From positions 1-47,567 of the IMG/VR virus record IMGVR_UViG_3300020156_000451: a stretch of 47,567 nt of DNA; one strand, written 5' to 3'. Below the pieces are notes generated by a model. It did not search any database. It was given only the letters and a program-made list of their open reading frames with translations, and was not told the origin of the DNA. Positions within the stretch are counted from its first letter, which is position 1, and each line of letters starts with the position of its first letter. Below, one piece after another: positions 819 to 27,356 of the stretch. The position numbers were made by a program, and so were the translations under genes. The DNA is from a virus.

Positions 819-1075
819 GTGGCGGATCAGTGCACCCAGCTTCTGAAGCTGGATTGCCTGGTGTGCGAGAGCACCGGCGAGGCCTGCGTCGAGTCTCGTT
901 TCGTGCTGCCGCGCCGGGCGAAGAAAATCGCCGAGATTCAGGCCCGTGTTGTAGATCTCACGGCAGAAGTGATCGATTGCCAGGTGATGGTGAGCGGCAC
1001 TCTGCACAAGCAGGTCTTCTTCGTGGGCGAGGACCATCACGTACATCATGTTCCGGAGGGGATATGTTTTCCTCG
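819..1075 (+). pseudogene. SPOCS/DUF3794 domain protein, truncated by the prophage
   Basis: A GTG start at 819 follows a good ribosome site (GGAAGGGGG at 801-809). About 84 codons read as a SPOCS (DUF3794) domain: a VVDLTAEVID segment and the diagnostic GTLHKQVFFVGEDHHVHHVPE segment. The family continues with a PF-S/T-F-hydrophobic stretch, but from about 1070 the frame runs into the integrase gene and homology stops. SPOCS proteins act in spore morphogenesis. Inference: the phage attB site lies inside this gene and integration cut it. The 3' half is not elsewhere in the window. The exact end is approximate because an in-frame shadow ORF continues to 1244. Confidence 0.7.
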
Positions 1076-2659
1076 CGGTAAGGAGGCAGGATCATTCGGG
1101 ATCAGCTGGATCTGGCGCCCGGGTAGGATTAGGGCCCGCTCGACCATGATTCTCACAAGATGCTGCCGCTTCTCGGGCGGCAGTTCTGCCAGGGCCTTTC
1201 GGACCCGGCGCTCGTCTCCGTTCAGCCGTTCATGCACCTCGTAGAGGTTACGGCGGAACTGATCCGACACCTGCCGCTGGGCTGTCAAATTGCCGATCAA
1301 CTGCTCAGTGGTGGCGAGCTGAGCCTTCAGCGCCTCGATCCGGGCCGTCTGCTCCTTGAGCATCGAATCAGCGACACTTTGATGGGCCTGGCCCCGCATG
1401 ACCATCTGCAGGAGGTTCACGTGCTCGGTTTGCACCTCGGCCAGGGCCCTGCTAAGTTCGTCCCGCAATCTGGTCGTTTCAGCGAGCCGGCTGTCAGCGG
1501 GCCGGTCCTTTGCTTCTCGTTCCAGACGCCTGACAAGCTCGTCCGGCCGGGCGAGCCACTCGATCACCTCAGCCCAGGCCGTCGACTCCATGATGTGGGC
1601 CGCCACATAGGGGAGGCCGCACTTCTTGGGGACGTTGGCCAGATCCCGCCTCGGCGACCGGTGGTAGCAGCGCATGGAGTAGGTGCCGTTGCGCTCGCTA
1701 GTGTAATGGACGGGCCCGCCACACAGACCGCAGACCGCCAGGCCGCTCAGGAGACCGGCGCCCCGCTGGGCCTGGCGCTTGTTGGTGCGAAGCACGGCCT
1801 GGACGGCGGCGAACAGCTCGTCGCTGATGATGGCCGGCACGGGGACGGTTGTCCACTCTTCCGGCGGGCGTTGCTTGGGCGTCAGCTTGCGCAGCTCTTT
1901 GGGGAGCTGCCGCTGCTGTTTGTAGCCGGCCGTGTTCCACCGAAGGCAGCGCATCTTCCCGACGTACGTGGTGTTCCGCAACATCCCTTGAATGGTGGAG
2001 GAACGCCAGACCTTGCCACGCTTGGTAGGTACCCCGAGGGCGGCAAGGCGGTCCCGGATCTCCATCGGCTGCAGCCGCTCAGCCCGCCACTTGAAAATCT
2101 GCTCGACCCACACGGCCTCATCCGGCACGATCACCAGCGTATCGGTGGCCACGTCGTAGTCGTACCCGTACGGGTGGGTCCCGTTGGCGACCTGGCCCAC
2201 CTTGAGCTTTCGGCGCAGGCCGGTCTTGGTCCGGTCCAGGATCTTGGCCTTCTCAAACTGGCTAATTGCACCGCGGAGGGTATAAAAGAGCTTGCCCTCC
2301 GCGGTGTTCTCATAGTTGTGGTTGATGAAGACGAGCTGGGCGCCCACGCCCTCGATCTCCCGGGTGACCAGCAACTGGATAAACGTCTCGCGGCTGAACC
2401 GATCAGGATCCATGCAGACAAAATGAGTGGGCCGCTGCTCGCAGACGAACTCACGGAGTTCCGTTAGCTTGGGACGCTCCAGAATGTCGCCGCCACCGAT
2501 ATCTTCGATGATGACCGTTTCGTACGGCTGGCCGGCTGCCAGGTCCGCCACCTTCTTGAGGCACTGCTCCCGCTGCTCCGGGAGGCTGAACCCGCGCTTC
2601 CCTTGGTCCGCAGTCGACACCCGGAGGTAAACCAGAAACACCAGCAGAGCTGTCGTCAT
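1046..2659 (-). CDS. Large serine integrase
   Basis: A 537-residue large serine recombinase catalysing phage integration and excision. It opens with a resolvase domain (YLRVSTADQG, catalytic Ser about residue 15; later DPDRFSRE), then a Recombinase domain (NGTHPYGY, GMLRNTTYVG), a zinc ribbon around residue 310 (CGLCGGPVHY with a second Cys pair), and a long C-terminal coiled coil typical of integrases needing a directionality factor. The ATG at 2659 is chosen because AGGAGGA lies 11 bases upstream; a TTG eight codons further up would overlap that ribosome site. It is the last gene of the lysogeny arm and lies against the interrupted SPOCS gene. Confidence 0.95.
   Translation of the reverse strand: MTTALLVFLVYLRVSTADQGKRGFSLPEQREQCLKKVADLAAGQPYETVIIEDIGGGDILERPKLTELREFVCEQRPTHFVCMDPDRFSRETFIQLLVTREIEGVGAQLVFINHNYENTAEGKLFYTLRGAISQFEKAKILDRTKTGLRRKLKVGQVANGTHPYGYDYDVATDTLVIVPDEAVWVEQIFKWRAERLQPMEIRDRLAALGVPTKRGKVWRSSTIQGMLRNTTYVGKMRCLRWNTAGYKQQRQLPKELRKLTPKQRPPEEWTTVPVPAIISDELFAAVQAVLRTNKRQAQRGAGLLSGLAVCGLCGGPVHYTSERNGTYSMRCYHRSPRRDLANVPKKCGLPYVAAHIMESTAWAEVIEWLARPDELVRRLEREAKDRPADSRLAETTRLRDELSRALAEVQTEHVNLLQMVMRGQAHQSVADSMLKEQTARIEALKAQLATTEQLIGNLTAQRQVSDQFRRNLYEVHERLNGDERRVRKALAELPPEKRQHLVRIMVERALILPGRQIQLIPNDPASLPRGKHIPSGT
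1050..1080. other. Inferred left attachment junction (attL)
   Basis: SPOCS homology on the plus strand ends at about 1070, and the integrase stop codon on the minus strand is at 1046, so the phage/host junction must fall in this interval. Serine integrases use cores of only a few bases, so it cannot be fixed without the matching attR, which I do not find. Confidence 0.45.
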
Positions 2660-2732
2660 GTCGGCGTGTTTCCTCCTGTTCAAAAAGCCAGTCTAGGGCG
2701 TATTGTACCAGATCGGAATGCGGCCTGACCAT
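2451..2732 (-). CDS. Leader ORF overlapping the integrase start
   Basis: ATG at 2732 with ribosome site GGGGGTGA 7 bases upstream. Residues 6-19 (SDLVQYALDWLFEQ) are identical to part of the small gene at 5945, and all six nucleotide differences over those 42 bases are synonymous, which argues that this segment is translated. After residue ~20 the frame runs into the integrase gene in another phase and the sequence looks like a shadow. The functional unit may be a ~25-codon leader that couples translation into the integrase. Family unknown. Confidence 0.5.
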   Translation of the reverse strand: MVRPHSDLVQYALDWLFEQEETRRHDDSSAGVSGLPPGVDCGPREARVQPPGAAGAVPQEGGGPGSRPAVRNGHHRRYRWRRHSGASQANGTP

Positions 2733-3427: not shown

Positions 3428-4909
3428 CTAGTCTGCTACAATCGCCGTGACCGTTGCGACAAGTATCAAGATTATCGGGAGCACCGCACAGCCGGCGCTT
3501 GGTTTCTTCTTTGAGGCCGGCTTGACTTCCACGGTGATGGTGCGCGAGCTTTGGCTCTCCCTGCCTACGACATATTCGTTCCCGTTGTTGGTTTTCTTCC
3601 GCCTCACGGCGACCGCAACATCCTTGCCGTCCTGCCAGTCGGTGACGTATTCCCAATCCTTGTGAGTTTTTGGGTTTATCACATCAGGGATTGCCTCTAC
3701 CCGTCGAAGCACATCGTCGAGTTGCAGAGCCGGGCAGAGTTGGTATGCCTCCAGGCTGCGCGATATCTCATGAATGATGTGGCCTTTGTTAACCTGGAAT
3801 GCCCCCGTTCGGTTCATGGTGCCGTACCCTTTCAGTCCTTCCCAACCTGCAAGGTTGATCCTGCACTGCCGACATCCGAAGTCATTATCGTTATAGTCTG
3901 AGGCATCATCTTGCCCGAAGCAGTATCTGTCTGGCCTATACGAGCGTGCTCGTTCCCCGAAGCAGTGCATGACGGACATCACCTTGCTGATCGGGTAGAC
4001 CTCACCGTCGACCAACACGGAAGTGGTCTTCCAGGAGCTTACCATCGTGAGAAGGTCCCGCGCAGAACTGATATCGGTCAGCCAATAGGTTGCGCGGTGG
4101 AGGACGTTCTTCCCTTCCCCTACTTCGTCAAACGTAGGGGCTTTTTTGGCTAGTTCAAGTGCCTCCAAGTACTTGGCAGAAGTGGACCTGCCAAACTGAA
4201 CAGTCAGCGTACGGTGCTTGGGTTGCACAGTGCTACCCTCCGCTCCAGTGGTAGTGCTCTGACCGGCGGCCAGGCCTTTGGCCGCAGCCGTCTGGGACGC
4301 AGCGAGTAACGTCTCTCTTCTACCGGCGACCAGTTCACGAAAGTAAGGGAGGCCGTCTTCATCTGGCCGTGCCAGGAGGGTCAGCGCTGCACGGGCGTCA
4401 GCTAGCGCTCTGTGTGCTTTTTCTGGCGTTACCCCGTGGTCCTGAAGTAGATTCTGCAGCCCTTTGGACTGAAAGCCTCGTGAGCGCCAATCAACCCCAT
4501 TCATTGAGCAAAGCCAGGGCATTGCAGCAGTCTGGGGGAGTAGATGACCGAGGAAAGGACCGTCAAATCGGGCATTATGTGCAACCAAGAACTCGGCCCG
4601 TTGGAAAAGACCGTTGATTCGAGTGAAGTCCAGTTGCTTACCTCTTAGCATTTGCTTGGTAAGGCCGTGCACGTCCGAGGCCGCTTTGGGAATCGGGCAT
4701 GTCGGTTCTCGTTGGCCCTCGTACTCATCGACTACTCCAAGGACTTGACCCGTGGAACGGTCATACGCGAACAAGATCAGCCCAAGCTCCACAATCTCAT
4801 CTTTCCCGGCCTTGAACCCTGTGGTCTCGGTATCAACAAAACAGGCTAGTCCGATCGTGGCCGTCATCATCGCGTCCGATGAAAAGCGCGGCAAATAGGT
4901 AGGCTGCAT
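3428..4909 (-). CDS. DEDDh 3'-5' exonuclease (DnaQ-like) with C-terminal membrane anchor
   Basis: 493 residues. Residues ~20-190 form a DEDDh exonuclease domain: ExoI FVDTETTG (D26/E28), ExoII AHNARFDG, ExoIII HRALADA. A ~250-residue middle region of unknown family carries four cysteines in two pairs (ending GCRQC), possibly binding zinc. The last ~20 residues (VLPIILILVATVTAIVAD) are a hydrophobic segment resembling a tail anchor. ATG at 4909 follows AAAGGGAG. It lies between the repressor and immA and so is probably expressed in the lysogen, which fits a role in host benefit or superinfection exclusion rather than phage replication; that role is inference. Confidence 0.75.
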   Translation of the reverse strand: MQPTYLPRFSSDAMMTATIGLACFVDTETTGFKAGKDEIVELGLILFAYDRSTGQVLGVVDEYEGQREPTCPIPKAASDVHGLTKQMLRGKQLDFTRINGLFQRAEFLVAHNARFDGPFLGHLLPQTAAMPWLCSMNGVDWRSRGFQSKGLQNLLQDHGVTPEKAHRALADARAALTLLARPDEDGLPYFRELVAGRRETLLAASQTAAAKGLAAGQSTTTGAEGSTVQPKHRTLTVQFGRSTSAKYLEALELAKKAPTFDEVGEGKNVLHRATYWLTDISSARDLLTMVSSWKTTSVLVDGEVYPISKVMSVMHCFGERARSYRPDRYCFGQDDASDYNDNDFGCRQCRINLAGWEGLKGYGTMNRTGAFQVNKGHIIHEISRSLEAYQLCPALQLDDVLRRVEAIPDVINPKTHKDWEYVTDWQDGKDVAVAVRRKKTNNGNEYVVGRESQSSRTITVEVKPASKKKPSAGCAVLPIILILVATVTAIVAD

Positions 4910-7741: not shown

Positions 7742-7894
7742 GTGACGTTCCAGCAGGTAGTTCAGGTGTATTTCGGGTCCACTCGGCCGGTGAGCGATGA
7801 CGAGGTGGCCGCCCTCAAGCTCAGCATGTCGGGAGACGAGTGGAAGGGCTTCGTGTCCCAGGTGCGTGCGGCCATGAAGACCACGGCGGCGTAG
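7742..7894 (+). CDS. Small hypothetical protein
   Basis: 50 residues from GTG 7742, which follows AGGAGG with normal spacing. No recognised family. Directly follows the DnaA-box cluster; its leader is the candidate origin. Confidence 0.55.
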   Translation: MTFQQVVQVYFGSTRPVSDDEVAALKLSMSGDEWKGFVSQVRAAMKTTAA

Positions 7895-8031
7895 CCCGCC
7901 CCCTCTGCCCTGATGAGGGTGAGCGCCGGAGGTGGCACCCCGGCGAATCGCTCCGGAGATCCGGAGCGACGGCAGAAGCCCCGCTGGCCTGGCCGGCGGA
8001 TACATGGATGGCCCGTGCGGGGGTGCACCCG

Positions 8032-8763
8032 ATGCCAGACTTCCCAGTAGGTATCCGCAACGGCCTCATATCGGGCGAGCACCGGCGCCGGATGGGCATG
8101 GCCATCTGGGAATTCATGTGGTTGGTTGACCACGTGACGGAGGAGTACCAGACGGCCGACGGCGAGATCCGGGGCAGGGTTCTGGGCGGCACAGTTGTGA
8201 AGGCTGACCGGATTGCCGAGGAGATGGGAATCAGCGAGAACACGGCCCAGGACAGCCTGAAGAAGCTGCGCCTGGCCGGTTACATCGACTACCGAAAGGC
8301 GGCCTACGGCTACCGAATCGAGGTCAGGAACTCGAAGAAATGGACCCGGGCCCCCACAGGGGCGACTGATTACGGTGATGAGAGAAATGGAGAACAGGAG
8401 AACAGGAGAACAGGAGAAACCTCCGACTCTCCTGGACTCCATGACTCCCGTTCTCCTGCGCCATTGGACATAGCAGTAAGAGATGACATCTCAGAAGTCA
8501 ATGTCCATGACCAAGAAGATGCCGCCGCAATCTGGGCCGGCGTGGTCGGGGTCGTCGAGCGGCAGTCGACGCCGAGGGCAGCGGAAGCAGCACGGGCATG
8601 CCGGCCATCGGCAGTTGACAGTAAAGAGATTACGGTCATTCTGCCCCGAGAGCCCGAAGCGAGGGAGGCCCTCAGCCGGAACGCGGCCGTGATCCGACAG
8701 GCGGTTCGCGATGTCTCAGGGAGATCCCTTTTCGTGAAGTTCCTAGATCCGCCCGTTGGATGA
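8032..8763 (+). CDS. Replication initiator: winged-helix N-terminus with DnaA-domain-I-like C-terminus
   Basis: 243 residues; ATG 8032 chosen because GGGGGTG precedes it. Residues ~10-105 are a winged helix (DRIAEEMGISENTAQDSLKKLRLAGYIDYR). Residues ~105-160 are a variable polar linker whose DNA holds an 8-bp tandem repeat. Residues ~162-240 resemble DnaA domain I: AAIWAGVV, then a TVILPREPEAREAL strand-helix and a FVKFLDPP end. In DnaA this domain recruits the replicative helicase, so this protein probably binds the phage origin and loads the host helicase, like lambda O in layout. The DnaA-I assignment is by eye. Confidence 0.65.
   Translation: MPDFPVGIRNGLISGEHRRRMGMAIWEFMWLVDHVTEEYQTADGEIRGRVLGGTVVKADRIAEEMGISENTAQDSLKKLRLAGYIDYRKAAYGYRIEVRNSKKWTRAPTGATDYGDERNGEQENRRTGETSDSPGLHDSRSPAPLDIAVRDDISEVNVHDQEDAAAIWAGVVGVVERQSTPRAAEAARACRPSAVDSKEITVILPREPEAREALSRNAAVIRQAVRDVSGRSLFVKFLDPPVG
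8389..8420 (+). repeat. Iteron-like array inside the initiator gene
   Basis: Three perfect tandem copies of GGAGAACA plus a variant fourth; an inverted copy (GTTCTCC) lies at 8450-8456. The 8-bp unit is out of phase with codons, so the repeat is conserved at DNA rather than protein level. Lambda-type phages place origin iterons in the same spot within gene O. Confidence 0.6.
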
Positions 8764-9930: not shown

Positions 9931-11826
9931 TTGATTACGTACCGCCTGGCCACAGGCAACCGGGGGTTCTTCGAGTACCTCGAGCAGCACCCCCAAAAGG
10001 GTAACGACTGGGTGGCGCCGGCTGAGTATGACGACGGGGTCGATTCGTCCACGGTGGTCATCAGGACCCCAGAAGGCGCCGATCTGGTTACGGTCCAGAT
10101 GAGCCCGAGGGCGCTGACGGATATCAAGTCCAAGATCGAGATGGACATGATCAAGCGCCGGCGGCCGTCGTCCCCGGCACCGGCACCTGCACAGCAGGGC
10201 CAAGGGCCAGGGATGGGAGAGCCGAAGCATGGCCGGCAGACGTTCAAGGCGACGACCGGCGACGAGCTGATCGCCAGCGTGTTCAAGTCGGTTCAAACGG
10301 AGCGGTGGATACTTGACGTGGTCCACGTGGCCGGCTGCGACGGCGGCTTCCTCCAACTGCTGGATGCGGGCGGCGCGAAGATCGTCAAGAACGTGCCGTG
10401 CACCCCCAGGGGCAACCTCAAGCAGCGGGTGACCGATGCGCTGAACGCCTACATCGACGGGAAGGCCGAACCGAACCAGCCGGCATCAGTGACGCCGCCG
10501 GCGCCGGCCGCCACAACGCAGGCGAGTCAAGCCAGGCCGGTAGATCCCGCCGAGAGGCCGGCTGACGTCCAGGTCCGGTACCTCGCCATCGAGGACATCC
10601 TGACGGGCGACAACGTTCGGACCGAAATGGGCGACCTGGAAGAGCTGGCGGCAGACATCAAGCGCCGCGGAGTCAAGCAGCCTCTGACCGTGCGGGAGGC
10701 GGGCGGGAAGTTCAAGCTGGTCGCCGGCGAGCGCCGCCTGCGGGCGGCCAGACTGGCCGGACTGCGATGGGTCCCCTGCCTAGTCGACGAGGATGACGAG
10801 GCCCGGGCCATCGAGTGGATGCTGTCGGAAAACGAGCACCGCAAGGCGCTCAGCCCGATCGAAGAGGCCCGGGGCTATCAACGGCTCATGGCAATCCTGG
10901 GGACCCAGGAGGCCGTGGCGCAGGCGGTGAGCAAGAGCCGGGTCCACGTGACCGAGTACCTCCAACTGCTCAGCCTGCCCGACGAGCTTCAGCAGCAGGT
11001 GGCCACCGGTTACACGCCGGTGAAGACCGCTCTGGAGTACCTCAGGCGGACGCGGGACGACTCCGCAGACGTCCGCCGCCAGGTGGCAGCCGGCCTTGCG
11101 CAGGAGAAGACCAGCACTCGGCAGGCGGGCGACACCGTCGAGCGGCTTCGCCAGGAAGCAGGAGCAGCCCCGGCACCACGGCGGGAGACTCCGCCGCCAA
11201 CCCCGCCCGCCAGTTCTCCGGCTCCGCCGCCCGCACCAGCGCCGCAGTCCGCTCCGGCCCCTGCCCCTGCGCCGACACCCGCGGCCCCGCCCGCTCCGCC
11301 ATCGCAGAATGTAGCGCGAGCGACAAACCTGCACAGGGTCGGGGAACGGATCTGGGATCAGCGCCTTTCCGGCCAGGCGAAGCACGAGCGGCTAGCAGCC
11401 CGCTACACGTGCCTCCCGTTGGCGGACGTGAAAGCGCACTGGGCCCGGCGGGCAGAACTCGGGGCGGCAATGATGCCGGCCACCACCGGCCGGAGCATCG
11501 TAGACATCCCAGAGCAGCGAGTGTGGTTCGGTGACACGCTCCAGCTTGAGCAGAACCAGGCGTCGGTAGAAGTCTGGGACGGCGACATCGCCATCACCCT
11601 GCCCCAGGGGTGTGTGCGGGCGGCCTACGATGGGAGCCCGGTGTACTACCGGGTGGAGTTGATCCGGACGGGCGATGTGACCATCGGCATGCTGCAGCAA
11701 CTGGTCATTCAGGAGGGCGACCGCCACATCGTGGTGACGGGGGCGGCCGCAGCGGCGATTGAGTACAAGCAGGTTGAGGCCTGGCGGAAGATGATCGCAG
11801 AACTTCCGTGCATGCCTGCGGTTTAG
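9931..11826 (+). CDS. ParB-like protein of a PRTRC-like cassette
   Basis: 631 residues from TTG 9931 (GGGAGGGAGA upstream). Layout: unknown N-terminal region (1-190, with an internal FKATTGDELI domain); ParB/Srx domain (~205-300: LEELAADIKRRGVKQPL, GERRLRAARLAGL near 267); an HTH region (~300-385); a long Pro/Ala linker (~405-460); and a unique C-terminal domain (~465-631). No ParA partner is nearby. A ParB homologue next to a ThiF homologue, a JAMM protein and a small ubiquitin-like protein is the defining set of PRTRC cassettes, so it probably belongs to that system. The linker DNA contains a copy of the 16-bp dispersed element encoding NVARAT. Confidence 0.8.
   Translation: MITYRLATGNRGFFEYLEQHPQKGNDWVAPAEYDDGVDSSTVVIRTPEGADLVTVQMSPRALTDIKSKIEMDMIKRRRPSSPAPAPAQQGQGPGMGEPKHGRQTFKATTGDELIASVFKSVQTERWILDVVHVAGCDGGFLQLLDAGGAKIVKNVPCTPRGNLKQRVTDALNAYIDGKAEPNQPASVTPPAPAATTQASQARPVDPAERPADVQVRYLAIEDILTGDNVRTEMGDLEELAADIKRRGVKQPLTVREAGGKFKLVAGERRLRAARLAGLRWVPCLVDEDDEARAIEWMLSENEHRKALSPIEEARGYQRLMAILGTQEAVAQAVSKSRVHVTEYLQLLSLPDELQQQVATGYTPVKTALEYLRRTRDDSADVRRQVAAGLAQEKTSTRQAGDTVERLRQEAGAAPAPRRETPPPTPPASSPAPPPAPAPQSAPAPAPAPTPAAPPAPPSQNVARATNLHRVGERIWDQRLSGQAKHERLAARYTCLPLADVKAHWARRAELGAAMMPATTGRSIVDIPEQRVWFGDTLQLEQNQASVEVWDGDIAITLPQGCVRAAYDGSPVYYRVELIRTGDVTIGMLQQLVIQEGDRHIVVTGAAAAAIEYKQVEAWRKMIAELPCMPAV
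11309..11324 (-). repeat. 16-bp dispersed element, copy 2 (perfect, inside ParB-like gene)
   Basis: ATGTAGCGCGAGCGAC on the plus strand, exact complement of the consensus. Lies at codons ~460-465, at the junction between the Pro/Ala linker and the C-terminal domain. Confidence 0.9.
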
Positions 11827-11840
11827 AGACCACGTAGGAG

Positions 11841-11866
11841 GGGCGGGGCCTCTGGGCGCCCCGCCC
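11841..11866 (+). other. GC-rich hairpin between ParB-like and ubiquitin-like genes
   Basis: GGGCGGGGC and GCCCCGCCC pair around an 8-base loop. No T-run follows, so it is more likely an mRNA-stability or attenuation element than a full terminator. Confidence 0.5.
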
Positions 11867-11901
11867 GGGTGGATCGCAAGAAGTGAGGAGGCAGATGAAA
11901 G

Positions 11902-12402
11902 ATGTCCGAGGAGAAGCAGACGAGCTTGTTTGATGGCGACGGCGACGGCGAGGCCGAGGAGCAGGAGCTAGAAGAGCAGCAGCTCGACGACGAGCACGAG
12001 CAGGACGGGGCTGATGACGGCGAGGACGATGAGTGCGGGTGCGATGACGAGAACCAGGGCGACGGGGGCAAGAAGCCTCGGGCGAAGAAGGCCAACGCCA
12101 AGACCGCCAATCAGCCGACGACGGAGCCGGTGAAGCCGGCCGCCCAGACGACGGCCAAGGCGACAGCGCCGGCGGCGCCGGCCTACACCTACCCCTTTGT
12201 GGTCCGCTATGCGGGCACGTTCCTCGACCTTCTTGGATTCAACGAGGGCCAGGCATACACGGTGGCACAGATCAAGGAGCTGCTGGTTCAGAACGGCTAC
12301 ACGGAGTTCCGGGAGATGGAGATCGATCTCCACCCGACGGAAGACAAGACGGTTCTCGCCATCACGATCCGGGGCAGCCGGAAGGGTGTCCGACATGGTT
12401 AA
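11902..12402 (+). CDS. Ubiquitin-like protein with acidic N-terminal extension (PRTRC-C-like)
   Basis: 166 residues; ATG 11902 ten bases after GAGGAGG. Residues 12-55 are extremely acidic, 55-92 are Lys/Ala/Pro/Thr-rich, and 96-166 form a compact alpha/beta domain with ubiquitin-like order (FVVRYAGTFLDL, a helix at VAQIKELLVQNGY, a last strand KTVLAITIRG). The chain ends KGVRHG, with a terminal Gly, as required for adenylation by an E1/ThiF enzyme. It overlaps the JAMM gene by 8 bases. Family assignment rests on neighbours plus fold pattern; sequence similarity to PRTRC-C is weak. Confidence 0.6.
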   Translation: MSEEKQTSLFDGDGDGEAEEQELEEQQLDDEHEQDGADDGEDDECGCDDENQGDGGKKPRAKKANAKTANQPTTEPVKPAAQTTAKATAPAAPAYTYPFVVRYAGTFLDLLGFNEGQAYTVAQIKELLVQNGYTEFREMEIDLHPTEDKTVLAITIRGSRKGVRHG

Positions 12403-12802
12403 GGTGCCGGCGTCGACGCTTCGGGTAATCGAAGACATCTTTTTCGCCGCCTACCTGCTCATGGGGACGGAAGAGCGAGTGATGATCTATGTCGATCAAT
12501 CCGGGCAGATCCTCCTAAGAAGGCCTCCTGGTGATCGGGGGCGGGCCCACGTCGACTGCGACCTGGAGCTGACGATAGAAGCTCAGGGGCGGCAGTGGGA
12601 TCTGGCCTACGACTTCCATTCTCACCATGTGATGGGGTGTGGATTCTCGGGGGTTGACGACGCCAACGAGCGCATCCGGGGTGTCACCTTCGGGGTGTTC
12701 TCGTGGGCAGGCGGGTTGCGGAGGTGGAAGTTCCGCCGATGGGGCGGCCCGGCCGACGGGTTCGAGGGCCTGCCTATCGAGGAGGTCGTCGTCGATGGGT
12801 AA
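12395..12802 (+). CDS. JAMM/MPN metallopeptidase (deubiquitinase-like; PRTRC-A-like)
   Basis: 135 residues with a complete JAMM motif: HSH at 75-77, seven residues, Ser85, two residues, Asp88, and Glu26 or Glu27 (GTEERVM) as candidate upstream acid. JAMM enzymes cleave isopeptide or peptide bonds after the Gly tail of ubiquitin-like proteins. Its start overlaps the end of the ubiquitin-like gene and its stop overlaps the ThiF gene, so the three are translationally coupled. Expected role: release or maturation of the upstream ubiquitin-like protein. Confidence 0.8.
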   Translation: MVKVPASTLRVIEDIFFAAYLLMGTEERVMIYVDQSGQILLRRPPGDRGRAHVDCDLELTIEAQGRQWDLAYDFHSHHVMGCGFSGVDDANERIRGVTFGVFSWAGGLRRWKFRRWGGPADGFEGLPIEEVVVDG

Positions 12803-13529
12803 CGGCGTGGCAGTGATCATCGTCGGCGCTGGAGGGATCGGCTCGGCCTTGTTCCAGGACCTTTGCCGGTTTCTGCCGCTTACGATGGACATCCACCTGG
12901 TGGACGGCGACGTCGTCGAGGGCAAGAACGTGCAGCGGCAGATGTTCAGCAAGCGGCACCTGAGGAGAAACAAGGCCGAATGCCTCGCGGAAACGGCGAC
13001 GATCGCTCTTGAGCAGGCTCGAATTTACTACCACCCGCAGTACCTGACGGAGCCTGGGCAGCTTGACCAAATCGCCGGGAACTACAAGAAGGGCATCGTG
13101 CTTGTGGGAGCGGTTGATAATCACCCGGCCCGCCGGGTGATGGAGATCTTCGCCCGTGGGTGGGTAAAGCGAGACGGTTGCCTGTACTACCTGGACTGTG
13201 CCAACGAAAAGGACCGTGGTGAAGTGGTTGCCGTGCACGTCGACGACGTCACGGGCATCACAGGAGACTTCCGGAGCGAAATAGACCCTGCAGTGCTCAC
13301 CGACAACACTGGCGATCCGACGACGGCGAGCTGTACTCAGCAGTTGGACGCAGGCAACATTCAGACGCTGTTCACCAACAGGAAGGCGGCCATCATCGCC
13401 CTAGAGCTGATCAGCTACCACCTCAACGGAGACACCCGGTATGGGATTGTGTATTTCAGTGACGTGCACACCGACCGGCTGAAGGGGGTGGACGTCAGTG
13501 GATCTCCGCAAGTGGTTCCTGCTTCATGA
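12795..13529 (+). CDS. ThiF/E1-like adenylyltransferase
   Basis: 244 residues. Rossmann nucleotide-binding loop GAGGIG at 11-16, a VDGDVVEGKNVQRQMFS segment at 37-52 typical of E1/ThiF/MoeB enzymes, downstream Arg/Lys (HLRRNKAE), and a candidate catalytic cysteine C180 (TTASCTQQ). These enzymes adenylate the C-terminal Gly of a ubiquitin-like partner and, in E1-type members, form a thioester. The obvious partner is the Gly-ended protein two genes upstream. Overlaps both neighbours. Confidence 0.9.
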   Translation: MGNGVAVIIVGAGGIGSALFQDLCRFLPLTMDIHLVDGDVVEGKNVQRQMFSKRHLRRNKAECLAETATIALEQARIYYHPQYLTEPGQLDQIAGNYKKGIVLVGAVDNHPARRVMEIFARGWVKRDGCLYYLDCANEKDRGEVVAVHVDDVTGITGDFRSEIDPAVLTDNTGDPTTASCTQQLDAGNIQTLFTNRKAAIIALELISYHLNGDTRYGIVYFSDVHTDRLKGVDVSGSPQVVPAS

Positions 13530-14157
13530 TGGTCCGGATCTTGAAAAGCAACTGAATAAGGCCATTCACCATTTCCCCTGCAGTGAGTTCCGGTGCCCCG
13601 CAGTGCTCGAGGTGTTCATCGCCGGGTTCGGATGTGGGTTCAAATTGACCGACAAGGATGGGCAGCCGACTGAAGCACTGCGGGTCATGGTGAAGCACAT
13701 GAAGGGCGCAGAACTGGTGACGGCTGATCAGCTCAGCAAGCAGGACCGGACCCACCTGACCGACGTCCCAAAAGGCACGCTCATGGACGTGTTGATTAAG
13801 CGCTGGTACATTCGTGGGATCTCGGAACGGCTGTACTTCGACGGCGCAGCCACCGGTAACTACGGCTGGGCCTGGCACATGTTCAGGAGCGTGAGGGGAA
13901 AACAGGGCCTGCGGTTCAAGCGGCTCACCGACGTGGTCGACGGCGTCAAGACCCGGCGGATGCGCTACCTGGCGGAATGCGTACCTGATTGGGAGCTGAG
14001 TGACAGTGTCTACGAAGGAATCTGGAAATACACCTACTCCCATCACGCCAAGCTGTGGAATGCTTACGGCTATCTTGCAGGCCGTGGATCCACTCAGCCG
14101 GGAGGAAGTGCTGGAACGGGAGTTCGACAACCTGAAACGGCAGGTGCCTCTGCGTGA
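13498..14157 (+). CDS. Unknown protein of the ubiquitin-like cassette
   Basis: 219 residues from GTG 13498, overlapping the ThiF gene by 32 bases. N-terminal part has an FPCSEFRCPAVLEVF stretch with two Cys; the body is basic and aromatic. No family recognised. Position between E1-like and E2-like genes suggests a cassette component. Its last ~50 codons overlap the next gene in another frame. Confidence 0.6.
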   Translation: MDLRKWFLLHDGPDLEKQLNKAIHHFPCSEFRCPAVLEVFIAGFGCGFKLTDKDGQPTEALRVMVKHMKGAELVTADQLSKQDRTHLTDVPKGTLMDVLIKRWYIRGISERLYFDGAATGNYGWAWHMFRSVRGKQGLRFKRLTDVVDGVKTRRMRYLAECVPDWELSDSVYEGIWKYTYSHHAKLWNAYGYLAGRGSTQPGGSAGTGVRQPETAGASA

Positions 14158-14416
14158 GCACAGCTACCGGTGGCTGTCATCGGTGCTTAACACAGCCCAG
14201 CAGAAGAAGCGCACGCTGCAGGATGTGGTGACCGACCTTCTCTCACGGTGCGGCACCGATCCAGAGGCGGCACTGCTGCTGCGTGACCTATGGGAAGTGG
14301 CGAAGGTCGCAAGGTCGAGGAGCGCCAACCGGAGCGTGCCTTTGTATTACGAGGTCTTCCGGCTGATCCGCGGTGTTGAAGACAAGCCCTTTGGTGGAGA
14401 GGGGGTCATGATTTGA
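14000..14416 (+). CDS. Unknown helical protein of the ubiquitin-like cassette
   Basis: 138 residues from GTG 14000 (GGGAG just upstream), or 118 from ATG 14060. Predicted all-helical and charged (LSREEVLEREFDNLKRQV...). The longer form overlaps the preceding gene by 158 bases out of phase. No family recognised. Overlaps the E2-like gene by 4 bases. Confidence 0.6.
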   Translation: MTVSTKESGNTPTPITPSCGMLTAILQAVDPLSREEVLEREFDNLKRQVPLREHSYRWLSSVLNTAQQKKRTLQDVVTDLLSRCGTDPEAALLLRDLWEVAKVARSRSANRSVPLYYEVFRLIRGVEDKPFGGEGVMI

Positions 14417-15054
14417 CAGCCGTCATCCTGGAACTGGACGAAGAGCAGATCAGGACCGGCTACGCCACGGTTACGAAGGTGGACGACAAGGGGCGCCGCA
14501 AGGGAAAGGTGTCGCTCTCAGACGTCGCTGATGTGCTCCGGGAGGTGTTCCGGCTTGATGCCGAGGGCCGGCAGGTCCGCATGGTCAGCCGGTTCGCGAA
14601 AAACGGCTACCTCGCTTATGGACAGAACGGCCCGAAGTGGGCGGCTGTGAAGGAACTCCCACCCGACGACTATGTGCTCGTCGCTGGCCAGGCATACAAA
14701 GTCACTTTGCCCCGGCTGGTCGCCGTGGTGAGCAACTACAGCTACAACGGCCCGCGTATCTTCTGGACGCCCGATGACGAGCTGACGCCGGGCAGCAAGA
14801 TCTACCCGTTGATGATCGGCAACATCGACTCCCATGGCAGCGTGTGCCTGGGCAACACCGGGCTGCACTGCAAAACGCCGGAGGACATGGAGAAGTATGT
14901 GCGCCAGGTGGTCGAGGCACCGGCCAACGGCCACTATCTCTCCGCCAAGACGAACGTGGACAAGCTCTATCGGGCCCTGACCAAACAGTGGGCGCCCGGG
15001 ATCGGCCGGAAGCACGGCACCACTCTCGGGAAGTTGCTGGCAGAAACGGTGTAG
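14413..15054 (+). CDS. PRTRC-B/E2-like protein
   Basis: 213 residues from TTG 14413 (GAGGGGG upstream). The C-terminal half matches the pattern I know for PRTRC system protein B: LPRLVAVVSNYSYNGPRIFW, then PLMIGNID and a Cys in GSVCLGN (C145), the position of the E2-like conjugating cysteine; a second Cys follows at 153. E2 proteins accept a ubiquitin-like protein from E1 and transfer it to targets. With Gly-ended modifier, JAMM and ThiF in the same operon this completes a conjugation set. E2 activity is inferred. Confidence 0.65.
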   Translation: MTAVILELDEEQIRTGYATVTKVDDKGRRKGKVSLSDVADVLREVFRLDAEGRQVRMVSRFAKNGYLAYGQNGPKWAAVKELPPDDYVLVAGQAYKVTLPRLVAVVSNYSYNGPRIFWTPDDELTPGSKIYPLMIGNIDSHGSVCLGNTGLHCKTPEDMEKYVRQVVEAPANGHYLSAKTNVDKLYRALTKQWAPGIGRKHGTTLGKLLAETV

Positions 15055-15073: not shown

Positions 15074-15490
15074 ATGGCAAGACCGAAGGGCAGAGCGGGC
15101 GTGCAGTGGCGCCACCAGTCGGTACCTGAGGAATGGGCCCTACAGCATGAGCTGAGAACGCTGGCCATCAAGGTCAAGGTGGCGGCGGCCGTCTCGGCCC
15201 GGCAAGGACACCGGTGCTGTTTCCCGGACTGCGAGCATCCGATCATCAGCTATCCTCACGGGATCCGGTGGGATCAGGGTGGAGTGGACGACGAGATCAA
15301 CCGGGCCGGGGTGTGTGCGAGCCACCAGCTGCTGATGAGAGGCAGCCGGGAGTCTGACGACGAGGCCCGGGCCTACCTGCAGGGATGGCTGCAGAGGTAC
15401 TACCAGGAAACGGCCGGCCTGGCCCCGGAGGTCTGGGAACTGATCGCCCGGGGCCGGCCGCCGGCGGATCTGGAGGTAACGGGGACATGA
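15074..15490 (+). CDS. HNH-like zinc protein
   Basis: 138 residues, ATG 15074 after GGGGAGGCG. Motifs RCCFPDCEHP and, after a spacer, GVCASHQLLM resemble the Cys/His framework of HNH nucleases, although a complete catalytic His-Asn-His is not obvious. The last gene before the sigma-like factor. Confidence 0.5.
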   Translation: MARPKGRAGVQWRHQSVPEEWALQHELRTLAIKVKVAAAVSARQGHRCCFPDCEHPIISYPHGIRWDQGGVDDEINRAGVCASHQLLMRGSRESDDEARAYLQGWLQRYYQETAGLAPEVWELIARGRPPADLEVTGT

Positions 15491-16254
15491 GCACGGCCGA
15501 CTACGCACTGATGAACCGCCTGGCCCCGCTGGCCCAGGACGGGGACAAGCTCGCCGAGGAGCGCCTGCTGAAGGTGGCCCGTGAGTGGGCAGCCATGGTG
15601 GTCTACGGCCAGGGCTGGCACCTTCCGAGCGGTGGAGACCAGCAGGATCTGATACAGGTGGCCGTGATCGGAGTGGCGGAGGCATTGCGCACGTGGGATC
15701 CCGGCAAGCACGCCGTGTTCACGAAGTGGGCGGAGCGGGTGATGCTCTGCGACATCATCCAGGAAGTCAAGAACGCCAACAGGCAGATGCGGCAGGGCCA
15801 GAACAACGCCACGTCGCTGGACGAGCCGGTCTACGCAAATGAACGTCGCAAGCCGGATGACACGTACCTGGCGCGAATGGACTTTCCTGACGGCAGCGGG
15901 CTCGGTAGGGACCCGGCCGACGCGGTGAGCGGCGAGGCGGATGATCTCCTGGCGGCGATGATCGCTCCCCTCAGCGACCTGGAGCGGCTGATTTTCACCC
16001 GGGTGATCCTGGGTGAGGAGCCATACCGGAACGTCAGTGATGACTACGGGTACCGTTGGAAGACCATCGACAACGCCTGCCAGCGGGCCCGGCGGAAGTG
16101 CACGAAGGTAGCGCAGCAGTTGGCCGTGGACGGGCCGGTGTCTGACGACCTGAGGGCGGCGGTGCGCCGGGCCGTGGAGAACTACCTGGCCGGCGTGAGG
16201 GCGCCCGGGGGTAAGTCCCGGTCCCGAAATCGGCGGGAGACGGCAACAGCATAG
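15487..16254 (+). CDS. SigH-like RNA polymerase sigma factor
   Basis: 255 residues. Region 2 is clear: DLIQVAVIGVAEALRTWDP, then KWAERVMLCDIIQEVKNANR and SLDEPV, as in sporulation SigH and other group-3/4 factors. Region 4 is at ~165-210 (LSDLERLIFTRVILGEEPYRN, then IDNACQRARRKC). It probably redirects RNA polymerase to phage middle or late promoters. ATG 15487 overlaps the preceding stop by 4 bases. Confidence 0.75.
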   Translation: MSTADYALMNRLAPLAQDGDKLAEERLLKVAREWAAMVVYGQGWHLPSGGDQQDLIQVAVIGVAEALRTWDPGKHAVFTKWAERVMLCDIIQEVKNANRQMRQGQNNATSLDEPVYANERRKPDDTYLARMDFPDGSGLGRDPADAVSGEADDLLAAMIAPLSDLERLIFTRVILGEEPYRNVSDDYGYRWKTIDNACQRARRKCTKVAQQLAVDGPVSDDLRAAVRRAVENYLAGVRAPGGKSRSRNRRETATA

Positions 16255-18656: not shown

Positions 18657-19016
18657 TTACTTGCTGGCGTCGAGGGGGTCCCATGTAGCGGCGTGCCGGA
18701 ACTCGTACGTGCCGTTCTCCTTCTCGAAGTAGTACAGGGCAATGACGGGGACGGCGTTGTTGCCGCTGGCACTCTTGACGATTCGGGTCTTGTCAGCATC
18801 GGCGACGGTCGGCGCCGTGGCGGCTCGGGCCGCCTTGACCTGCACGTACCATTTCTTCTGTCCCTTGACGGCGATGAGGTCGCTCGCCCCCTCGCTATTC
18901 GGCTTGTTGTAGTTAACGGTCCACCCAAACCCTTCGAGGATGGCCTTGATGCGGGCCTCGGCATACTCCCCGAACTTGTCGGCGGTAAGGTTCTTGACGT
19001 CATCCCAACGGCTCAT
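18657..19016 (-). CDS. PD-(D/E)XK-type nuclease, Holliday-junction-resolvase-like
   Basis: 119 residues on the minus strand, convergent with the preceding genes. The N-terminal GEYAEARIKAILEGFGW helix, ASDLIAVKG and WYVQVKAARA segments follow the PD-(D/E)XK core (E, D, then Q-x-K in place of E-x-K), as in Hjc-like resolvases. Probably trims or resolves phage DNA. The Q-for-E substitution occurs in some active members. Strand reversal in an otherwise plus-strand arm suggests separate acquisition. Confidence 0.65.
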   Translation of the reverse strand: MSRWDDVKNLTADKFGEYAEARIKAILEGFGWTVNYNKPNSEGASDLIAVKGQKKWYVQVKAARAATAPTVADADKTRIVKSASGNNAVPVIALYYFEKENGTYEFRHAATWDPLDASK

Positions 19017-19980: not shown

Positions 19981-20997
19981 ATGAAGGTCTACGTCGCAAG
20001 CAGCTGGCGGAACACGACTCAGCCTGAAGTGGTGGCGGCCCTGCGGGCGGCCGGCCATGAGGTCTACGACTTTCGGCACCCGGCGCCCGGCAACGAAGGC
20101 TTCCACTGGTCGGAGATCGATCCGGAGTGGAAGGGCTGGACGCCGGAGGATTTCATCGAACTGCTGGGCCATCCGGTGGCCGAACGGGGCTTCGGTTTCG
20201 ACATGGCAGCGCTGGACGGGGCGGATGCAACGGTGTGCGTCCTGCCGTGCGGGCGGAGCGTCCACCTGGAGGCCGGGTATACGGCCGGCCAGGGCAAGCC
20301 TGTGATCTTCCTCTTGCAGGGGCAGCTGGAGCCCGAGCTGATGTACAAGATGGGGCGGTGGTGTGTGACCACGATCGAGGGGGCCGTTGTGGCGCTGGCT
20401 GAGATTGAGGCTATGTGGGCCCCGGCATCACCGAGCTACGTTAGCGGCGTTGACATGGCGGCGCCCGAGCCCGCCGGGGGCGACAACGAGGTTTTGAAAG
20501 TCAGCCGGGCGTGCGCACTTACGCTGCTCGACAAGTGGAAGGCCAGCATGGACGACCCGGAGCATCAGCCGCCGATCGAGGTTCACCACATCGACCTGGC
20601 GGTACTGCGTTCGGCAATCGGCAACAAGGCCTGGCCGAAGCTCTTCACCGCGCAGGACCTGCAGGGCGCATTCTTCGCCTGGCTCGACCGGGGAGCACCG
20701 GGGACCACGAAGATCATCATCAACGACCGGAACGCGACGTGGGCGGCGCTGGCGGCCCAACTGGATGGGAAGGCGCCCGAGCCCGTGGCCACGATTAGGC
20801 CGCCGGCGAGTCTGGTGGCAGGTCTCCACGAGGTGCATGAGCAGATCGTGGCCGAGGTGGCGGCCGGGACAAGGCCGGCCTGCGATACCCGCCTGGAGAT
20901 CGGGCCCGAGGATTGCGAGCGCTGCCCGCATCGGCCGGAGGGCGAAGGCCTGTTTTGTGAGGGCCGCATCAACAAGACGGCGGCGCCCAGGTCATGA
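19981..20997 (+). CDS. Nucleoside 2-deoxyribosyltransferase-like protein with C-terminal extension
   Basis: 338 residues. Residues 1-145 match the NDT-like fold: MKVYVASSWRN start, a GHEVYDF strand, an ADATVCVLPCGRS segment and HLEAGYTAGQGKPVIFL. NDT-type enzymes exchange or cleave the base of deoxynucleosides and are used by phages in nucleotide metabolism; some relatives are defence NADases, so substrate cannot be stated. Residues 165-300 are unknown and the end has a Cys cluster (CERCPHRPEGEGLFC). Confidence 0.65.
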   Translation: MKVYVASSWRNTTQPEVVAALRAAGHEVYDFRHPAPGNEGFHWSEIDPEWKGWTPEDFIELLGHPVAERGFGFDMAALDGADATVCVLPCGRSVHLEAGYTAGQGKPVIFLLQGQLEPELMYKMGRWCVTTIEGAVVALAEIEAMWAPASPSYVSGVDMAAPEPAGGDNEVLKVSRACALTLLDKWKASMDDPEHQPPIEVHHIDLAVLRSAIGNKAWPKLFTAQDLQGAFFAWLDRGAPGTTKIIINDRNATWAALAAQLDGKAPEPVATIRPPASLVAGLHEVHEQIVAEVAAGTRPACDTRLEIGPEDCERCPHRPEGEGLFCEGRINKTAAPRS

Positions 20998-22508: not shown

Positions 22509-23039
22509 ATGATGCTCGACCAACGGCCTTTGGCCTCGACCGAGATAGCGGAAGGGTACGCCGAAACGGCCATTCTTGCGGAGCGGAGACGGCAGAAAGT
22601 TGCTGGGTTCGGGGATGTCATGGCAGCGGCGGCCTGGGCCAGTGTCGCCCGCTACTGCACCGATATGGCGAAGAGCAAGGCCATGGATGACGACCAATTC
22701 AAGTTCCAACGCGACCGGGACCGGCACCGCCGAGAGGTGCCGATGACTGCAGAAATGATGGATGTGGTTGGCATCAGGGCCGTGGCCGGGGCGGAGGGGA
22801 GTCTTCGGCCGTGGCAGGAAGCCTTGATCGAACTAGCGATGGGGTACCTGTCTCCGATGCAGCGGGTCTGCTTCGAGCTGGTGGTCGGTGGACTGCTCAC
22901 AGTCAAGGAGGTAGCGGAAGCGCTGGACATGGACGAGCGACAGGTCCGCCAGCATCTGGCCCGGGCGAAGGCGACCATGAAGCGCAGTGTCCAGCCTCGC
23001 ATCGCCCCGCTTATTGAGGAACGAAGAAAATATCGCTAA
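22509..23039 (+). CDS. Sigma-70-region-4-like late regulator (ArpU-type)
   Basis: 176 residues from ATG 22509 or 22512 (GGGAGGAA upstream). The C-terminal ~70 residues read as sigma region 4: LSPMQRVCFELVVGGLLTVKEVAEAL, then ERQVRQHLARAKATMKR. Such proteins precede the HNH-terminase block in many Firmicute phages and switch on late genes. Ends in a perfect intrinsic terminator. Confidence 0.7.
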   Translation: MMLDQRPLASTEIAEGYAETAILAERRRQKVAGFGDVMAAAAWASVARYCTDMAKSKAMDDDQFKFQRDRDRHRREVPMTAEMMDVVGIRAVAGAEGSLRPWQEALIELAMGYLSPMQRVCFELVVGGLLTVKEVAEALDMDERQVRQHLARAKATMKRSVQPRIAPLIEERRKYR

Positions 23040-24014: not shown

Positions 24015-24422
24015 GTGAAAAATTCGAGCGAATTGCCGCGAGACACGCGGATCAAGCGAGAGGTGAGCCGGCTTCGCCGGATTCTGAAGAAGGTGCCGGA
24101 AGTCAGACAGCAGCTGGCCATCGGCTTGGTTGAGCGTGCCGCTTTCCTGCGTGTCGAGTTGGAGGACCTGGAGGCCGACATCAACAAGAACGGCACCACC
24201 GAGGTTTATCAGCCGAGCGAGGATTCGCCACCCATAACGAGGATTCGGGCAGCCGCCCAGCAGTATGACAAGCTGGTCAAAAGCTACACGACCGTCTGCC
24301 GGCAGATTGACGACCTGGTACCGCAAGGTGGTAAGCCGGGCGAAAAAGTCACGGCTCCGTCTGATGCCCTCCAGAACCTGATTCAGAGTAGGGCCGAAGG
24401 TCGGATGCGGCGTGTCAAATAG
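24015..24422 (+). CDS. terS: Terminase small subunit (probable)
   Basis: 135 residues from GTG 24015. All-helical and charged, of the size and position of P27-type small terminases, immediately before and overlapping terL by 11 bases. Assigned chiefly by position; no diagnostic motif. Confidence 0.65.
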   Translation: MKNSSELPRDTRIKREVSRLRRILKKVPEVRQQLAIGLVERAAFLRVELEDLEADINKNGTTEVYQPSEDSPPITRIRAAAQQYDKLVKSYTTVCRQIDDLVPQGGKPGEKVTAPSDALQNLIQSRAEGRMRRVK

Positions 24423-26169
24423 ATCTGCTGCTATGCTGCCCGCACACATACGCGCCTGGCATGACTACGTCGAGCGGGAGCCGGAGAAGCACTGCTCAGA
24501 CGTCAAGCAGCTCAAGCGAATGATTGAGGAGCTGCTGGCCAGAGACGACGTCTGGTACGACGACACCGACGTAGAACTGTTCATCGGCTTCTGCCGGCTG
24601 TTCCGGCACAAGGATGGCCGCTGGGCCGGGCAATCGCTGGAACTGTCCATTGAACAGCGGTACATCGTTGCCTGCGTGTTCGGAATCAAGACCCACGATC
24701 CGGAGCTAGACATGACAGTTCGGTATTTTACCGAACTCGTTTTGTTTGTAGCGCGGAAATGGGGCAAGTCACTCTTCATTTCGGCCATTGCGGCTTTCAT
24801 GCTCATGCTGGACGGTGAGCATGGCGCTCAGGTCTGGTGCCTGGCAACGGTCAGGACTCAGGCTGCCATCGTCTACGACAATACCAAGGCACTGATGATG
24901 TCCAGCGAGGACATCACGCCACCCAACGATCCCCGGCGTCACTGGCGCACCAAGCGCGACCGGGATAACAGCGAAATGCTGATCTTCCCTGCCACCAACA
25001 GCTACATGAAGGCCGGTGGCAAGAACAGCGAAAACCAGGACGGTCTATCACCGCACTGCTTTGTTATTGACGAATGCCACGCCGTAAAGGACCGAAACAC
25101 CTATGACGTGTTCTCGTCGGCTACAGGGGCCAGAACCCAGCCACTAGGCGTGATCATTTCAACGTTCGGGTTCGTGCGGGAGGGGATTTTCGACAGCGTT
25201 CTTAAGCGGTGCGAGGACCGGCTTGCCGGCAAGAGTGACGAGCGACTATTCCCGATGATTTTTCGCATCGACACGGCCGATAAGCCCGAAGATCGCTCCT
25301 GCTGGATCAAGGCGAATCCAGGCATTCCAGAGGCGCGGCCCACGATGCGGTACCTCGAAGCTGAGTATCAAAAGGCCCAGCAGGATCCCGCTCAAATGCC
25401 CAGCGTCCTGGCCAAGCACTTCAACCGTGCATCCGGGACCAGTGTGGCCTATTTTGATCTGCACCAGGTTGATCCATGTGCTGCCGATATGTCCGTCGAT
25501 GTGCTCAGGAACCGGTATGCCGTTGGCGGTGTGGACCTCTCAGAGACCACCGACCTGTGCTGCGCCTCGGCGCTCGTTCCCCTAGATGGCAGCCTGCATC
25601 TGTTCCAGCGCTATTTTATCGCCCGCAATCGGATTGAGCAGAGTGCCAAGCGGGACCGGATGGCCTACGAGAGTTTCGTTAGCACCGGTGCGGCCGATCC
25701 GCTGCACGATAGCTTGTTGCACATCTGCGATGGCAGTTTCGTGAGCCGTAAGGATGTGGCGGATTGGTTCTCCATGCTGGCCCGTGACTATGGCGTCACG
25801 TTCTGGAAAATCGGCGCTGACCGGTGGCATTTGGCTGATTTCATCGAGGACATGGAGATTGCCGGGTTCCCACGAGAGGGGAAGGATGGGGTTGGGGTTG
25901 TCTTCGAGGTGGCCCAGGGGGCGAAGACACTCTCCGAGCCTATGAAAGAGACCCGGGTGATATTTAACGACCGCAAGATGGTATTCAGCCGCCACAACGG
26001 GCTGTTCCGCTGGTGTGTGACCAACACGGCGGCAAAGATCGACGAGAACGCCAACATCCAGCCGGACAAGCGGGCGTCACGGGCGCGTATCGACGGATAT
26101 TCGTCCTACCTGATGGCCTATGTGGCCTACAAGAAGGTGCAGGACGATTTTGCTGTCTATCAACCTTGA
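24412..26169 (+). CDS. terL: Terminase large subunit
   Basis: 585 residues. ATPase motor with variant Walker A (VARKWGKS, ~113-120) and Walker B with catalytic Glu (CFVIDE, ~216-221), a motor-coupling STFGF segment, and a C-terminal RNase-H-like nuclease starting at GGVDLSETTD (~365). Packages DNA into proheads and cuts concatemers. GTG 24412 overlaps terS; ATG 24433 is an alternative start. Confidence 0.95.
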   Translation: MSNRSAAMLPAHIRAWHDYVEREPEKHCSDVKQLKRMIEELLARDDVWYDDTDVELFIGFCRLFRHKDGRWAGQSLELSIEQRYIVACVFGIKTHDPELDMTVRYFTELVLFVARKWGKSLFISAIAAFMLMLDGEHGAQVWCLATVRTQAAIVYDNTKALMMSSEDITPPNDPRRHWRTKRDRDNSEMLIFPATNSYMKAGGKNSENQDGLSPHCFVIDECHAVKDRNTYDVFSSATGARTQPLGVIISTFGFVREGIFDSVLKRCEDRLAGKSDERLFPMIFRIDTADKPEDRSCWIKANPGIPEARPTMRYLEAEYQKAQQDPAQMPSVLAKHFNRASGTSVAYFDLHQVDPCAADMSVDVLRNRYAVGGVDLSETTDLCCASALVPLDGSLHLFQRYFIARNRIEQSAKRDRMAYESFVSTGAADPLHDSLLHICDGSFVSRKDVADWFSMLARDYGVTFWKIGADRWHLADFIEDMEIAGFPREGKDGVGVVFEVAQGAKTLSEPMKETRVIFNDRKMVFSRHNGLFRWCVTNTAAKIDENANIQPDKRASRARIDGYSSYLMAYVAYKKVQDDFAVYQP

Positions 26170-27340: not shown

Positions 27341-27356
27341 AAGGTGGTGAACGAGG

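Follow-up and report, generated by a model that had tools for sequence, protein, structure and literature searches.

Why should a temperate bacteriophage carry what appears to be a ubiquitin-type conjugation pathway among its early genes, and on which proteins might such a pathway act? The question is raised by IMG/VR virus record IMGVR_UViG_3300020156_000451, whose host field is empty and whose whole stretch of 47,567 bases—here called the window—was analysed. Six genes at 11902-15054, each overlapping the next by a few bases or more, are predicted to encode, in order, a ubiquitin-like (Ubl) modifier, a JAMM peptidase, a ThiF-type activating enzyme (E1), two proteins without assigned function (X and Y) and a conjugating enzyme (E2). 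We read them, with a probability of roughly 0.55, as a phage-encoded pathway of Ubl conjugation and deconjugation acting on DNA-replication proteins. The pathway chemistry, as predicted from motifs and structural models, is well supported; that the target is one or more replication proteins is what we infer. The features of the cassette are as follows:

11902-12402, plus strand: Ubl modifier, 166 amino acids (aa), with QTSLF at residues 6-10, an acidic linker, a Ubl domain at residues ~93-162, K161-G162 and a tail VRHG
11917-11931, plus strand: QTSLF in the modifier's disordered N-terminus, fitting QxxLF, the general motif for beta-clamp binding
12395-12802, plus strand: stand-alone JAMM/JAB peptidase, 135 aa, a predicted deconjugase with a metal-site pentad and with PDB and PRTRC_A profile matches
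12795-13529, plus strand: ThiF-type E1, 244 aa, with one adenylation domain (PF00899, E 4.7e-15) and a candidate thioester Cys180 at 13332-13334
13498-14157, plus strand: protein X, no assigned function, coding signal to ~14060, starts DLRKWF
14060-14416, plus strand: protein Y, 118 aa, no assigned function, ends GVMI
14413-15054, plus strand: E2 (UBC-like) conjugating enzyme, 213 aa, with N137 at 14821-14823 and C145 at 14845-14847

A first-pass annotation of this stretch had named a ParB-like protein, the modifier, the JAMM peptidase, the ThiF E1, X, Y and the E2, and all of these genes are present in frame. The E1 carries the GxGGxG motif as GAGGIGS, and its candidate Cys180 is invariant together with the adenylation residues (Cys180 in 8/8 and 6/6 aligned relatives). 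Its best NCBIfam model is TIGR03736, PRTRC_ThiF (63.8 bits, below the cut-off of 144.75), one of the models TIGR03734-TIGR03742 for the PRTRC systems known in proteobacterial and Deinococcus plasmids and integrative and conjugative elements. Matches of the E1 family profile in the PDB include the SUMO-, UFM1- and NEDD8-activating E1s and Cap2 of the cyclic oligonucleotide-based antiphage signalling system (CBASS).

The active site of eukaryotic UBC-family E2s reads HPN-x7-C, and the stretch IGNIDSHGSVCLG of the window E2 has an N-x7-C spacing equal to that of this HPN...C site. P100, N137 and C145—the last being the cysteine singled out earlier—are unchanged in 25/25 relatives. The proposed likeness to PRTRC B finds support in a comparison with seven PRTRC-annotated B proteins (hhalign E 3.1e-14 over ~209 columns, the full length including the Cys), alongside which the NCBIfam models gave no match. 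The AlphaFold model of the E2 (predicted local distance difference test, pLDDT, 80) aligned best with UBC-type E2s, as the proposed fold check had anticipated: all 50 of the 50 VIA-align rows listed were UBC-fold E2 chains, at a modest Z of 4.9-5.9 over ~112 residues.

The start of the JAMM gene was corrected to the ATG at 12395, which is overlapped by the TAA of the Ubl gene. The metal-site motif is complete, as had been noted, and its pentad E26-H75-H77-S85-D88 is unchanged across 12 relatives. All seven PDB matches of the JAMM family profile were JAMM deubiquitinases (AMSH, AMSH-LP and BilC), weak, with a best E of 0.021; against PRTRC_A, hhalign aligned 61 columns about the metal site (E 5.4e-5), and no NCBIfam model matched. 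The window protein starts directly at its JAMM domain; in the other types, its relatives measure 200-500 aa.

The modifier does end in glycine (...GSRKGVRHG). The K161-G162 pair within this terminus is kept in 13/13 aligned Ubls, and KG forms the very end of all 20 Ubls in the viral loci of a second scan (below). Searches of the modifier against Pfam, NCBIfam and PHROG matched no family. Its C-terminal domain was modelled by AlphaFold with a pLDDT of 86, and the VIA-align rows listed were mostly ubiquitin, ISG15 and related chains, with ubiquitin and ISG15 on top (Z 4.5-5.0). This agrees with the beta-grasp fold expected of the product and suggests, at a modest Z, a single beta-grasp-like Ubl domain of ~70 residues after a low-complexity N-terminus. 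Foldseek alone returned no significant match for the modifier or E2 models, and the Z-scores are modest; the identification rests on the accord of folds with motifs and operon.

All six genes recur, in unchanged order, in L049, a 10 kb contig of a metagenome-assembled genome (MAG) of groundwater Chloroflexi, with which the window makes up what we call type W. Identities for Ubl, JAMM, E1, X, Y and E2 are 53, 44, 60, 32, 33 and 47%, respectively, and chance is excluded for the cassette genes because they are conserved in L049. In the E1 tree, the window pairs with L049, with support and on a long branch; the tree does not resolve where this pair belongs deeper down. Rates of nonsynonymous (dN) and synonymous (dS) substitution were computed between the two loci for JAMM, E1, X, Y and E2: JAMM, E1 and E2 have dN well below dS, X and Y have ratios closer to 1, and dS is saturated. 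The neighbourhood search proposed at the outset thus recovered the gene order, but the flanks of L049 do not reveal whether it belongs to a phage.

Other relatives fall into three layouts. Type P consists of Ubl-E1-X-E2 without a JAMM gene; it was found in 11 loci and then, in a second scan, in 20 viral contigs, the two sets overlapping. Altogether, at least 20 further prophage or phage loci have this form. The organisms, where named, are mostly Erysipelotrichaceae; a clamp-like gene accompanies the cassette in Anaerorhabdus furcosa and Amedibacillus dolichus prophages, and two of the type P loci have portal and capsid genes ~10 kb downstream. Type B, E2-JAMM-E1, occurs in jumbo phages, including Bacillus phage vB_BauM_KLEB27-3, and in plasmids. 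Type C, JAMM-E1-DnaN, occurs in Oscillospiraceae elements, in many of which an E2-like gene lies several kb downstream:

Type C loci, in which DnaN overlaps or directly follows ThiF: L004, L058, L064, L067, L070, L073, L077, L079, L080, L082, L087, L088, L095, L098, L103, L107

The type P Ubls examined terminate exactly at KG, without a tail. That Ubls have a C-terminal tail strictly where a JAMM is present was considered as a rule and dropped, one JAMM-bearing PRTRC C protein also ending exactly at KG. Weak ThiF homologues (E ~1e-16 to 1e-20) were also seen on marine Euryarchaeota/Poseidoniales MAG contigs (L078, L085, L090, L091, L094, L097 and L099). Single-protein scans of viral contigs with the window ThiF or E2, tblastn of the window E2 in phages and plasmids, and a JAMM-motif scan each returned nothing. 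Phage carriage of such cassettes is nevertheless widespread, not unique, because KLEB27-3, the type P prophages and phages and dozens of IMG/VR contigs have related cassettes; the earlier remark that carriage by a phage looks new was therefore too strong. Within the reach of our literature search, we found no description of the JAMM-bearing six-gene phage form or of the type P prophage family.

What points towards replication is the company that these cassettes keep. Type P neighbours include RecT, SSB, RusA, DnaD-like loaders and antirepressors, and the Ubl gene has a DnaN-like gene directly upstream in 7/11 and 10/20 type P loci of the two overlapping sets. In more than 12 type C Oscillospiraceae loci, a 4-bp overlap joins DnaN to the ThiF stop; in Bacillaceae plasmids, dnaN lies two to three genes from the cassette; and in a Sulfuricystis plasmid it stands just before PRTRC E. 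Elsewhere in the flanks of types P and C no clamp match was seen, save a weak opposite-strand shadow in L014. The type P clamp-like family, which Pfam does not recognise, matches DnaN in profile-profile comparison (P 1.5e-10). That sliding-clamp genes adjoin Ubl cassettes in several unrelated arrangements is a new observation. A role in DNA metabolism is suggested because the cassettes lie in replication and recombination modules and recurrently adjoin clamp genes.

A possible physical link to the clamp lies in the modifier itself, which opens MSEEKQTSLFDG and so contains QTSLF. The general clamp-binding form is QxxLF (PMC12309361), and the clamp-binding motif of Hda is likewise located in a disordered N-terminus (PMC11139829). 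Across the window proteins (14,013 aa), two such motifs were seen against 0.19 expected. The L049 Ubl has QLTLW at the corresponding N-terminal place, and QTDIF or QTTIF occurs at the N-terminus of JAMM proteins from Bacillaceae and Alicyclobacillus cassettes. Such N-terminal motifs seem to sit on the Ubl in types W and P and on the JAMM in other types. Short hydrophobic motifs (QTDIF, QTTIF, GLFDL, DDIFGML) were observed ahead of disordered linkers in the JAMMs of L003, L007, L062, L063, L066 and L086 and in type P Ubls.

X and Y call for separate comment. Because the coding frame, as judged by phasing of GC content at third codon positions, switches near 14050, Y most likely starts at the ATG at 14060, the last ~33 codons of X being an over-run. 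The X/Y split is genuine: the sister locus L049 also has it. By alignment, the DLRK start of X is common to the X proteins of related phages. In those phages X is a single gene whose product ends (E)V(I/L)x, comparable to the GVMI of Y; X and Y together may be a split form of it. Neither X+Y against the X of other phages nor X against PRTRC F was significant by hhalign, and because of this we claim no common origin in either case.

The setting of the cassette in the phage genome can be read from the following genes:

1046-2683, minus strand: integrase of serine-recombinase type, ~545 aa (phrog_95 integrase, E 4.6e-80; phrog_125 DNA invertase, E 1.1e-24)
7840-8763, plus strand: DnaD-like helicase loader, marker of the replication module (phrog_7498, E 2.8e-21)
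9931-11826, plus strand: ParB-like protein, 631 aa, upstream neighbour of the cassette (ParB_N PF02195 and HTH_ParB PF17762)
24412-29331, plus strand: terminase large subunit, portal, ClpP-type head protease and HK97-type major capsid (phrog_9, phrog_12, phrog_94 and phrog_10)

The structural genes run from terminase through portal, ClpP-type protease and HK97-type capsid to tape measure (24412-36409), and a tRNA-Arg lies close to one end of the window. Because an integrase, a DnaD-like loader and HK97-type structural genes occur together, the gene content identifies the window as a temperate siphovirus-like HK97-type phage, with the cassette following the loader and ParB in its early arm, much as the first-pass annotation had placed it. 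The Firmicute host assumed there is unproven, because no host came out of a scan of genome contigs for the terminase. Capsid relatives share 48-96% identity over aligned parts, on short contigs that stop before the early region.

Several other genes were observed in the same genome. Two sigma-factor-like genes lie in the early region (15385-16254 and 22509-23039), and TIGR02859 (E 7e-18) marks one of the two as similar to sporulation sigma H. At 19981-20997 lies the gene for a protein with a nucleoside deoxyribosyltransferase domain (phrog_12607) and at 3428-4909 (minus strand) that for a DnaQ-like exonuclease with an extra C-terminal region; a Holliday-junction-resolvase-like or restriction-endonuclease-like gene (18657-19016, minus strand) stands amid the plus-strand early region.

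The claim of one coupled operon reaching back to ParB stands in part: tight overlap extends from the Ubl gene to the E2 gene, but ParB ends 75 bp short of the Ubl gene and is uncoupled. Its membership in the cassette is uncertain, and no ParB gene was seen next to the cassette in the related phages. Between ParB and the Ubl gene, at 11835-11880, lies a GC-rich inverted repeat (GGGCGGGGC/GCCCCGCCC), which we do not call a terminator because its folding is no better than that of shuffled sequences (z -1.0) and a T-run is absent.

How does the cassette relate to systems already described? Its likeness to PRTRC extends to the ParB gene upstream, a small Ubl-like protein with C-terminal KG, a JAMM (a probable counterpart of A), an E2-like protein (a probable counterpart of B) and a ThiF. 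The order differs, PRTRC running ParB-E-C-F-B-A-ThiF and the window Ubl-JAMM-E1-X-Y-E2, and the window JAMM lacks an N-terminal domain. The window ParB scores 63.1 bits against TIGR03734, PRTRC_parB (cut-off 278.6), and generic parB_part scores higher; the Ubl shows no sequence match to PRTRC C, although KG is found at the C-terminus of each and the model of the window domain is ubiquitin-like. Comparisons of X, X+Y and the Ubl with PRTRC E or F by hhalign gave nothing significant, leaving no recognisable E or F, and no match to the actin-like D was found among the window proteins scanned, a subset of the window genes. The earlier label of PRTRC-like is supported for E2/B, for JAMM/A and for the choice of PRTRC_ThiF as best ThiF model, but no cut-off was reached, E, F and D were not recognised and the order departs.

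The type 6d operon comprises a Ubl, a JAMM, an E1, an E2-like protein and an extra protein (Iyer, Burroughs and Aravind 2006; PMC1779556). The window resembles it in the separate Ubl with C-terminal Gly, the E2-like protein with a conserved Cys and the extra protein without assigned function, as well as in the adjacent, overlapping JAMM and E1 genes and an E1 with a ThiF domain only and no rhodanese. X/Y sit where type 6d has a mostly helical protein with conserved charged residues, as possible counterparts of it. Differences are the N-terminal alpha+beta JAB-N domain of the 6d JAMM, missing from the window JAMM, and the phage-borne position of the window cassette in a replication module. Judged by the family cut-offs, the cassette is PRTRC-related but not strict PRTRC; the most fitting name for it is a phage variant of the PRTRC/type-6d kind of bacterial Ubl systems. 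KLEB27-3 (OM634661 gp194-196) also carries homologous E1, E2 and JAMM genes on a phage, as Bacillaceae plasmids do on plasmids, but in the order E2-JAMM-E1, with an N-terminal extension on the JAMM and in large lytic phages or plasmids. Bil operons share a Ubl, an E1, an E2 and a JAMM peptidase; they have a tandem two-domain Ubl, an E1 that joins an inactive and an active adenylation domain to a Cys domain, and a CEHH E2 motif (PMC11354881), whereas the window has a single Ubl domain, a 244-aa E1 with one ThiF domain and an N-x7-C E2 motif.

In the pathway we propose, the E1 would adenylate the C-terminal glycine of the modifier and hold the modifier on Cys180, from which it would be moved to Cys145 of the E2 and joined by the E2 to lysines. 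The JAMM would strip the modifier off again and may trim the VRHG tail back to KG; X and Y would perhaps serve as substrate adaptors or as an E3-like helper. The likely stage of action is phage DNA replication, with a replication-fork protein being modified. The leading candidate for the target is the sliding clamp or a clamp-bound partner, to which the N-terminal QTSLF would recruit the window modifier. The nearest conceptual analogy may be the ubiquitylation or SUMOylation of PCNA. More tentatively, and at well under even odds, we suggest as a general rule that phages and mobile elements tag the sliding clamp or clamp-bound proteins at their own forks, the Ubl (or the JAMM, in JAMM-first versions) being recruited by a clamp-binding peptide.

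Several points weigh against our reading. Conjugation is predicted, from sequence and models; structural Z-scores are modest (~5-6 at best), Foldseek E-values are non-significant and VIA re-ranks Foldseek's own list, which is rich in ubiquitin and E2 chains. No clamp gene was detected in the window, so that a clamp would need to come from the host. Aliphatic residues are preferred at position 2 of the motif, where QTSLF has Thr, and known motifs are weakened by a Trp at position 5, such as the L049 counterpart has (PMC11139829); the N-terminal hydrophobic motif of type P lacks the Gln. Loci within a clade are phylogenetically linked and not independent, and gene adjacency need not mean substrate.

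Among other explanations, a prophage-borne, Bil-like defence, in which an invading phage would have its structural proteins tagged with the modifier, would be in line with the anti-phage role of Bil and CBASS Cap2/Cap3, the bacterial Ubl systems with an E1, an E2 and a JAMM that have been characterised (PMC11354881; PMC10097602), and BilC is among the few PDB matches of the JAMM family profile. We consider it unlikely: PADLOC models match none of the modifier, JAMM, X, Y or E2, giving only generic similarity to the E1; Bil combines a two-domain modifier with an E1 of two adenylation domains, against the single domains of the window; and the cassettes lie within replication and recombination modules, recurrently beside sliding-clamp genes, not in accessory defence islands. 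The Bil-like alteration of virions entertained in the first-pass annotation is left without positional support by the same placement. Modification of the neighbouring ParB-like protein or of a partition complex, which would control segregation of an extrachromosomal prophage, appears less probable again. A ParB gene does precede the cassette in the window and in proteobacterial PRTRC cassettes, but related phages have no ParB beside theirs, the gap of 75 bp carries no translational coupling and the window has its own integrase, so that the phage is probably integrated.

Could the E1 and Ubl instead serve sulfur transfer or another small-molecule pathway, in the manner of ThiF or MoeB? The ThiF domain, the single-domain E1 and the C-terminal glycine of the modifier would all fit, but a UBC-like E2 with a conserved Cys shares the operon, a JAMM and an E2 have no known place in such pathways, rhodanese and metabolic neighbours are absent and the N-terminal linker of the modifier is long and charged, all of which makes this explanation very improbable. 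We give least credence of all to a decaying remnant without present activity. X and Y look as though the single X gene known from other phages had been cut in two, as decay might do, but L049 keeps the split, no catalytic residue is lost and JAMM, E1 and E2 show dN well below dS.

To our knowledge, all bacterial Ubl conjugation systems of known role are anti-phage defences, and we know of no function assigned since 2006 to the PRTRC/6d operons, which are related to the cassette. A phage family whose cassettes lie in replication modules and adjoin clamp genes gives these orphan systems a concrete, testable role. If clamp tagging proves true, it would be a prokaryotic counterpart of PCNA ubiquitylation and SUMOylation; ubiquitin-type control of the replication clamp would then exist in bacterial viruses and would bear on the origin of eukaryotic PCNA modification.

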